64,000 nucleotides of DNA, taken from Acidobacteria bacterium Mor1 (lineage in GTDB: Bacteria; Acidobacteriota; Polarisedimenticolia; Polarisedimenticolales; Polarisedimenticolaceae). Made by a program: the position numbers and the translations under genes. Positions 13,439 through 15,888 of the stretch are shown piece after piece; the stretch's first letter is position 1, and each line of letters starts with the position of its first letter. Below the pieces are notes generated by a model, which saw nothing but the letters and a program-made list of their open reading frames with translations, was not told the DNA's origin and made no database searches. The stretch lies in the NCBI GenBank assembly GCA_001664505.1, contig CP011806.1:2456904-2520903 (forward strand), given 5' to 3'.

Positions 13439-13888
13439 GTGGCTGGCTACCATCTCGCCCAGATGAACATCGCGCGCATGGTCGCTCCCCAGGAGGACCC
13501 GGTGATGGAAGGGTTCTTCTCCCAGCTCGAGACGATCAACGCCCTGGCCGAACGAAGCCCCGGCTTCGTCTGGCGGCTGGTCGGCGACGGTGGTGACGCC
13601 ACCGACGTGCGGGTCTACGAGGACGAGCGCATCCTGGTCAACATGTCGGTCTGGGAAAGCCTCGAAGCGCTCCACGATTACACCTACCGCAGCGCCCACG
13701 CCGGCGTGTTCAAGGACCGCAAGAAGTGGTTCGAGATGCCGAAGAGCGCCCACATGGTGCTCTGGTGGGTCCCGGCGGGGTATCGCCCCACCGCCGCCGA
13801 AGGGCGGGCCAAGCTGGAGCATCTGGATGCCCACGGCCCCACCGCCGAGGCCTTCACCTTCAAACAGGCGTTTCCGATGCCCGGCTAG
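13439..13888 (+). CDS. DUF3291 domain protein
   Basis: A 149-residue protein (start GTG 13439) that matches the DUF3291 family, a dimeric ferredoxin-like fold related to antibiotic-biosynthesis monooxygenases. Recognisable stretches are YHLAQMNIARM, PGFVWRLVGD, LVNMSVWESLEALHDYTY and HMVLWWVPAGY. The function of the family is not established. I prefer GTG 13439 because GGAGG ends 5 bases upstream; GTG 13433 is the alternative. Its stop overlaps the stop of the convergent VWFA-related gene by 4 bases. Confidence 0.85.
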   Translation: MAGYHLAQMNIARMVAPQEDPVMEGFFSQLETINALAERSPGFVWRLVGDGGDATDVRVYEDERILVNMSVWESLEALHDYTYRSAHAGVFKDRKKWFEMPKSAHMVLWWVPAGYRPTAAEGRAKLEHLDAHGPTAEAFTFKQAFPMPG

Positions 13889-15888
13889 GGGGCAGGCGTG
13901 GCGGCACCTTCCGCATCGAGGTCGGTGATCGAGAAGCGCAGGCGGGTTTGATCCTCCGCCTCGCGGTCCCGTTCTCCCAGCGAAGCCTCGAAGACGTACT
14001 CCCCCTTGCGTAGCGCACTTGCGGGCAGCACGTCGACCAACGGCTGGCAGTGCAGCTTGCCCTTGCCGGCGAAACGGAGAGGTACCGGCAGCAGGCGCCC
14101 GACCTCATCCCCTTCGCCTCCCATCAGCCGCCGCTCGACCTTGCGGGGGTCGTTCTTGCGGCCGCGGCCGAGCAGGCAGACCTGGCTCAGCGCCACCAGG
14201 TCGTCGCCGGCGGGAAGCTGAGTCACCAGCAGCGGCTCGAAGCTGTTGGCGCTACCGATCTTCGACTCCGCTGCCGAACCGTCGGCATCGGTTCCACCCT
14301 CAATCACCACGTTGCCGCCGGCGGGGCGCCCCAGAATCGGTTCGACCAGGAACGGTTCCCCGCGGCGAATCTTCGGCACCGTCAGGTTGACCCGGGTCGC
14401 CTCGGGCCGGGTCTCCTTCGGGTCAGCCAGCACGGTGGTCAGGGTGTAGTCGCCGGGGCCGAGCTCGACGCGCTCGACGAAGGTGACCGTGGGCACGGCG
14501 TCGGAATCCTCTCCCACCGGCTCCAACGACACCATACGATTGAATTCCCGGGCGATGTCCGAACCCTCGTTGAGCACCGCACCGAAACGCCGCTCGACTG
14601 CCTGACCGTCGTTTCCGCCCAGCGGCATGGGGAAGCTGATCGCCAGCAGCGCGTCCCACTTCTTGCGGGAGACCGGCTGCAGCGGATAGACGTGGGCCCG
14701 CACGATGCCCCGGTCGTACATGCTCGGCGCGATCCAGGCCGCCTGGAGCCGCAGTTCCCGTTTGCGGCTGTCGGAGCGGAAGACCTGCTTCGAGGGATGG
14801 AGCACTCGCAGCTCGGGCCGGGTGACGTTGACCGCGATGGAGCGGACCTTGTCCTCAACCCCCTCTTCCACGTAGACACCGAGGGTGTAAACGCAGGAAG
14901 CGTCCCGCTGGGCCCGGGCGTAGGCCAGGGTCAGATCGTTGGTGCTCTCGGAGAAGCGTCCGCCGGAGTCGATGGCCAGCTGGGCCAGAGAAGCGTTCCG
15001 TGACTGAATGCGTGCGTCGGTAACTCCGACGGGAATGAGGGGCATTCAGCCTCAGCCTTCGGCCTCCGCCATGTTCTCGAAGGTCTCGATCTCGTCGAAA
15101 AAACCTTCCTCGGCGAACATGCCGCGGGTATCGATCGGGTAGATCGAGCACCGGGAGTTCGCCGCAAGAGCTGCGATCTCGGAAAACTGGTTATCCAGCG
15201 GGACGTCCTGCATCCCGGAGAACATCACCAGGGACTTGCGTCCCGGCACCTCCTCGAGGACGGTCATCAGCCCCTTCATCCCACCGACGAAGCCGAGTTC
15301 GTTCAGATGGGCGAAGTTGCCGTTCCAGAGCGAGATATCGTGACGCATGCGATCGACGGTTGAGAGCAGCGAATCCCGGTCCGAGGAGAACCCGTGCTCG
15401 ATCCGCAGGCCACCGGTGAGCGCGGCGATCATGATCTCGTCCTGCCGGCCGCTCATCTCGCCGATCAGTTTCTCGGCGTGGACCAGCGCTCGCTCCCGGG
15501 ATCCGGTCGCCAGGTGCATGTAGTCGAACAGCAGCACCGAGCGGCGCACCGATTCCGACGCCGGAATCGGCGCACGCTTGCCCTTCGGTCCCACCGCGAC
15601 CGGATCGGGCAAGGCACCGGCCCGGCAATCCACATCCAGGGTGTCGATGCGCGCCGGATTCCCCCGGTAGACCGCCTCGAAGTCCTCCATGCCGAGGCCG
15701 GAGACCGTGGCTCCCTTGCCGTCGACGACCACCACGTCCATCAACACGAGGCGGACGGCGGCCTGCTCGGTGGTGCCGAGGTCGAGGGGCTCGGTGCCGG
15801 TCTCGACAGCCGCAACCACTCCCCAACCGAGGAGCAGGGCCGACAGAGCGACCCCGACGTAGGTTCGTTGCATCGCCGGAAGCCTCAT
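13885..15888 (-). CDS. VWFA-related acidobacterial protein, copy B, with two in-frame TGA codons (candidate selenoprotein)
   Basis: Read through two TGA codons (15054-15052 and 15048-15046), this frame encodes 667 residues. A signal peptide is followed by an acidobacterial VWFA-related domain (VRLVLMDVVVVDGKG, RRSVLLFDYMHL, GRKSLVMFSGMQ, CSIYPIDTRGMF). The two TGA codons lie at positions 279 and 281 (EG-*-G-*-MP). The same frame continues with DARIQSRNASLAQLA, GGRFSESTNDLTLAY, where this domain family normally ends, and then 300 conserved residues. A conventional caller would split it into 15052-15888 and 13885-15045. The second TGA is followed directly by ATG, so reinitiation is possible here. 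The start overlaps the stop of copy A by 4 bases (ATGA). The paralogue has the same TGA pair, so I treat it as one gene with Sec insertion. Confidence 0.7.
15004..15049 (-). promoter_or_regulatory. SECIS-like RNA structure, copy B
   Basis: On the mRNA strand the second UGA is part of a perfect lower stem CUGAAUGC (15049-15042) with GCAUUCAG (15011-15004). Above it sits a 5-bp apical hairpin GUCGG (15030-15026), loop AGUUA, CCGAC (15020-15016). The apical loop begins 20 bases after the second UGA. Bacterial SECIS elements lie immediately 3' of the UGA inside the coding region and have an apical loop with an exposed G/GU, as here. The assignment is by structure and position only. Confidence 0.6.

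Follow-up and report, generated by a model that had tools for sequence, protein, structure and literature searches.

Candidate selenoproteins with paired in-frame TGA codons in a VWA domain of Acidobacteria

A tandem gene pair with internal TGA codons

The window analyzed here is a stretch of 64,000 nt from Acidobacteria bacterium Mor1 (GCA_001664505.1, contig CP011806.1, 2,456,904-2,520,903, forward strand), and coordinates refer to this window unless a genome position is given. Its minus strand carries two tandem paralogs, copy A and copy B (65% identity), with the following features:

13885..15888, minus strand: copy B, VWA-domain protein, 667 residues with both TGAs taken as selenocysteine (Sec; U279, U281)
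14803..15765, minus strand: copy B residues 42-362, VWA domain as matched by TIGR03436, with the TGA pair inside it
15052..15054, minus strand: first TGA of copy B, candidate Sec codon U1, replaced by Cys in the homolog from G007
15046..15048, minus strand: second TGA of copy B, candidate Sec codon U2, the invariant TGA position in the subfamily
15015..15031, minus strand: copy B hairpin CGTCGG-AGTTA-CCGACG, loop 20 nt past the second TGA
15885..17843, minus strand: copy A, tandem paralog, U-G-U motif as in copy B
17019..17027, minus strand: copy A TGA-GGC-TGA (U273, U275), TGAs at 17027-17025 and 17021-17019
16991..17007, minus strand: copy A hairpin CGTCGGA-GGT-TCCGACG, loop 18 nt past the second TGA

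Read directly with TGA as U, the copy B frame extends from the ATG at 15888 to a TAG at 13887-13885, and is interrupted by two internal TGAs and no other stop. Direct reading confirms the original prediction that copy B has GGC-TGA-GGC-TGA in frame (15057-15046, minus strand) with an ATG next (at 15045), and that the paralog carries the same pair (17027-17019). The terminator of copy A is itself a TGA (15887-15885), so that UGA is both terminator and internal codon within one gene; genome-wide reassignment of UGA is ruled out by this terminator and by other family members that have no internal TGA. The copy A terminator shares bases with the copy B start codon (ATGA, 15885-15888), which suggests translational coupling of the two copies.

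Selenocysteine machinery and homologous TGA sites

The Mor1 genome (a single contig of 5.985 Mb, 99.98% complete) encodes SelA (516 bits) and SelD (358 bits), both over their curated cut-offs, as well as SelB (330 bits; cut-off 242) and a tRNA-Sec (72.7 bits; gathering score 47), which ARAGORN types as tRNA-SeC with anticodon TCA. The SelD gene (L048, genome C1:2910488-2911429) has an in-frame TGA at the catalytic position (SCAG-U-ASK); SelD is therefore likely to be a selenoprotein itself, and Sec is evidently used in another protein of this genome.

Among 396 genomes of the phylum, an in-frame TGA at the homologous site (site one) was found in seven genes of the subfamily, from six genera and three families, with five of the seven in genera other than that of the window genome. 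The motifs at this site are:

Copy A: GGG-U-G-U
Copy B: EG-U-G-U
G002: PG-U-G-U
G005: PG-U-GL, a single Sec with no partner close by
G004: GG-U-Q-C
G010: Y-C-PG-U
G007: GG-C-G-U

UGU thus occurs three times, and CGU, UQC, CPGU, and GU once each. The second TGA is constant (the codon column is TGA in 6/6 aligned full-length members), and its partner is U or C at -2, C at -3, C at +2, or none (G005); the first TGA is replaced by Cys in one relative (G007) and is missing in others. Exchange of Sec and Cys among homologs is one of the standard signs of a selenoprotein (PMC13188914). Such exchange was found at the first site (UGU vs. CGU), in the partners of the UQC and CPGU forms, and in a second loop (UGC vs. 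CTRC). This second loop was identified in a distant TIGR03436 homolog from another family (L122, G024:C51, TGA 1315-1317), which reads SGG-U-G-C in a different loop of the VWA domain, and a relative of this protein (L069; clade support 1.0 in the tree) has C-TR-C in the corresponding loop. Cys forms around the G024-type loop (CTRC, CGC, and CEQC) are present in L069, L070, L038, and L040.

In close relatives that lack the TGA, the loop has either been lost or contains no Cys pair. Among the TIGR03436 matches listed from 41 genomes of the class, internal stops are confined to this subfamily and are all TGA, and in-frame stops are thus unusual for TIGR03436. The site-one members group in a single clade (support 0.99) in which they are intermixed with loop-less members, with weak inner nodes; this arrangement fits a Sec loop that may have been ancestral and then repeatedly lost. 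All site-one carriers and G024 encode tRNA-Sec and SelA, and the sole member of the same order without a detected tRNA-Sec (G008) has a TGA-free homolog, but because the Sec trait is common in the class, this co-occurrence is weakly diagnostic. Mor1 also encodes a TGA-free relative with no Gly-rich loop (L089, genome C1:2571884-2573311), ~98 kb away. A TGA-free relative of copies A and B is also found in G003, ~0.7 kb or less from the gene for tRNA-Sec (L128, G003:C60, 4450-6613).

SECIS-like hairpins, protein fold, and selection

In the bSECIS model (PMC13188914), the loop lies 16-37 nt downstream of the UGA and has a G within its first two positions. A hairpin that fits this model was found in 8/8 TGA-bearing genes, with the loop starting 18-21 nt past the last UGA and with loops of GGU, AGUUA, GUC (three genes), GUU, AGUUC, and UGGAUU. 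Both window copies also have an outer stem, which takes in the second UGA and pairs downstream (15051-15042 with 15011-15002 in copy B), with bases that differ between the copies. Against protein-preserving synonymous shuffles, a position-free test (energy alone) gave individually weak P values of 0.02-0.49. A position-aware test against synonymous shuffles gave 0.008-0.12 per gene and 6.5e-6 combined, for a positional range that was chosen post hoc and a gene set that includes the related copies A and B; for the two genes added after the first six, P was 0.023 and 0.042. The hairpins support Sec insertion, short of proof.

Copy B (126.7 bits) and copy A (146.7 bits) match the NCBIfam profile TIGR03436 (acidobact_VWFA; curated cut-off 81.25), and all eight TGA-bearing homologs exceed the cut-off with a match that covers the TGA site. 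Neither copy A nor copy B has a match in Pfam; in NCBIfam (June 2026), TIGR03436 is the sole matching model, and no selenoprotein model matches either copy or the homologs. With a pLDDT of 58, the structure model of the full-length protein was poor, and an AlphaFold model of the VWA domain only (residues 30-390, from 45 homologs; mean pLDDT 88) was used in its place. Over model residues 82-303 (protein residues 111-332), the best matches among solved VWA domains reach Z 16.9; VWF A1 scores Z 16.8 (rmsd 2.7, 174 aligned), tied with many other structures. The TGA pair corresponds to model residues 250 and 252, in a low-confidence loop between a strand (218-224) and a helix (270-278). VWA topology presumably places the UxU loop on the face where canonical VWA domains have their metal site. 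The canonical MIDAS motif (DxSxS), which would follow the first core strand, is absent from both copies, which have FDYMHL there, a degenerate metal-site segment in which D, Y, and H are invariant and there are no serines. By eye, both copies have a signal-peptide-like hydrophobic N-terminal stretch, and the proteins are probably exported.

Substitution rates between copy A and copy B were calculated by NG86. Relaxed selection downstream of the TGA pair, which had been flagged beforehand as a point to check, is not seen in this comparison: dN is 0.282 before the pair (272 codons) and 0.283 after it (377 codons), and dN/dS is 0.21 before and 0.32 after, with dS near saturation.

Selenocysteine as the meaning of the TGA pair, and relation to known systems

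The original prediction took the TGA pair of the two copies to be conserved rather than a product of decay, which the equal dN on both sides and a TGA at this site in five further genes bear out; it named no mechanism, and the evidence points to selenocysteine. Judged from sequence, both UGAs in copies A and B are very probably Sec codons, and the copies selenoproteins with a Gly-U-Gly-U motif, a reading that draws on the homologous TGA sites, Sec/Cys exchange, the Sec machinery, the SECIS-like hairpins, constraint on both sides, and a VWA domain that runs across the pair.

The alternative that survives best, though it is improbable, is that the pair causes termination and coupled reinitiation, which would yield two polypeptides from each gene. 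The suggestion that copy B alone could work in this manner holds up mechanically, in that TGAATG is preceded by GAGG and the downstream ORF starts at that ATG, but the two products would part the strands and helices of one VWA domain, and the second of them would lack a signal peptide. In copy A, no start codon accompanies the TGA pair, the next one (16802) being within the conserved domain, and what the relatives conserve is the pattern of the redox motif, not a start codon. The possibility raised beforehand that the halves are separate polypeptides by design is thus disfavored, the VWA domain spanning the pair and copy A having no nearby start. Slightly less probable again is programmed readthrough, in which a near-cognate tRNA (e.g., for Trp) would read UGA without selenium; conservation of both halves in a single frame is in keeping with it, but the partner positions in the CGU, UQC, CPGU, and UGC relatives hold Cys, never Trp, and the full Sec machinery and SECIS-like hairpins are present. 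In-frame stops usually mark pseudogenes, but we attach very little weight to gene decay or sequencing errors as the source of the TGAs, given a site common to independent genomes, internal stops there that are all TGA, frames that are otherwise intact, and the dN/dS values on the two sides.

In the Sec reading, SelA, SelB, SelD, and tRNA-Sec, encoded elsewhere in the genome, would decode both UGAs, directed by one SECIS-like hairpin just downstream. Gly-U-Gly-U would then sit in a flexible insert that follows strand beta5 of the VWA domain. In the probably exported protein, UxU (in relatives CxU, UxC, or CxxU) would alternate between the selenol and a diselenide or selenenylsulfide in thiol or peroxide redox chemistry, or else would bind soft metals. 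The gene neighborhoods of the carriers have no partner gene in common. Two carriers only, the window genome (18598-20985) and G010 (L126:7517-9784), encode FG-GAP repeat proteins upstream of the candidate Sec-VWA gene.

We consider it likely that these genes represent an undescribed family of exported selenoproteins on a VWA scaffold, with Sec/Cys pairs in flexible, Gly-rich loops of the ligand-binding face, gained in two distinct loops, and with a diselenide-capable UxU motif that is unlisted in prokaryotic selenoproteins. The prokaryotic selenoproteome would thereby gain a family in a fold not listed there, and the widespread TIGR03436 family would have a redox-active branch, if the proposed redox role is correct. 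Two Sec codons one codon apart, seemingly served by one hairpin, would constitute a natural test of processive Sec insertion in bacteria. Such genes are carried by MAG contigs of several Acidobacteria, and public annotations therefore probably show them truncated or split.

VWA, TIGR03436, and UxU are all absent from a 2026 list that covers 119 families and subfamilies of prokaryotic selenoproteins (PMC13188914, Table 1), and VWA is mentioned neither in the deep-Sep paper (PMC12013277) nor in a 2022 review (PMC9312934). A search of open-access published papers for selenoproteins with a VWA domain returned off-topic titles only, and no mention of TIGR03436 was found in them. The decoding would be that of the known bacterial Sec pathway, and it is the host family and the motif that appear to be new.

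Copies A and B and all TGA-bearing homologs belong with TIGR03436 by score and by a match that spans the TGA site, but the other members found have no internal TGA and mostly lack the Gly-rich loop. The arrangement of Sec and Cys one residue apart in G007 (CGU), G004 (UQC), and G024 (UGC) is similar to that of the UGC DUF1573, UGC TlpA-like, CxU rhodanese form 3, and UxC thioredoxin-like Sec.2 selenoproteins (PMC13188914); however, these have different domains, none of which is VWA, and none has UxU. Two neighboring Sec residues, potentially able to bind metal or to join in a diselenide, are also a feature of the UxxU Prx-like thiol:disulfide oxidoreductase and the metal-binding protein NF041115 (PMC13188914), but those UxxU proteins differ in Sec spacing and have other folds, whereas in the Acidobacteria genes the pair is UxU and is situated in a loop of a VWA domain.
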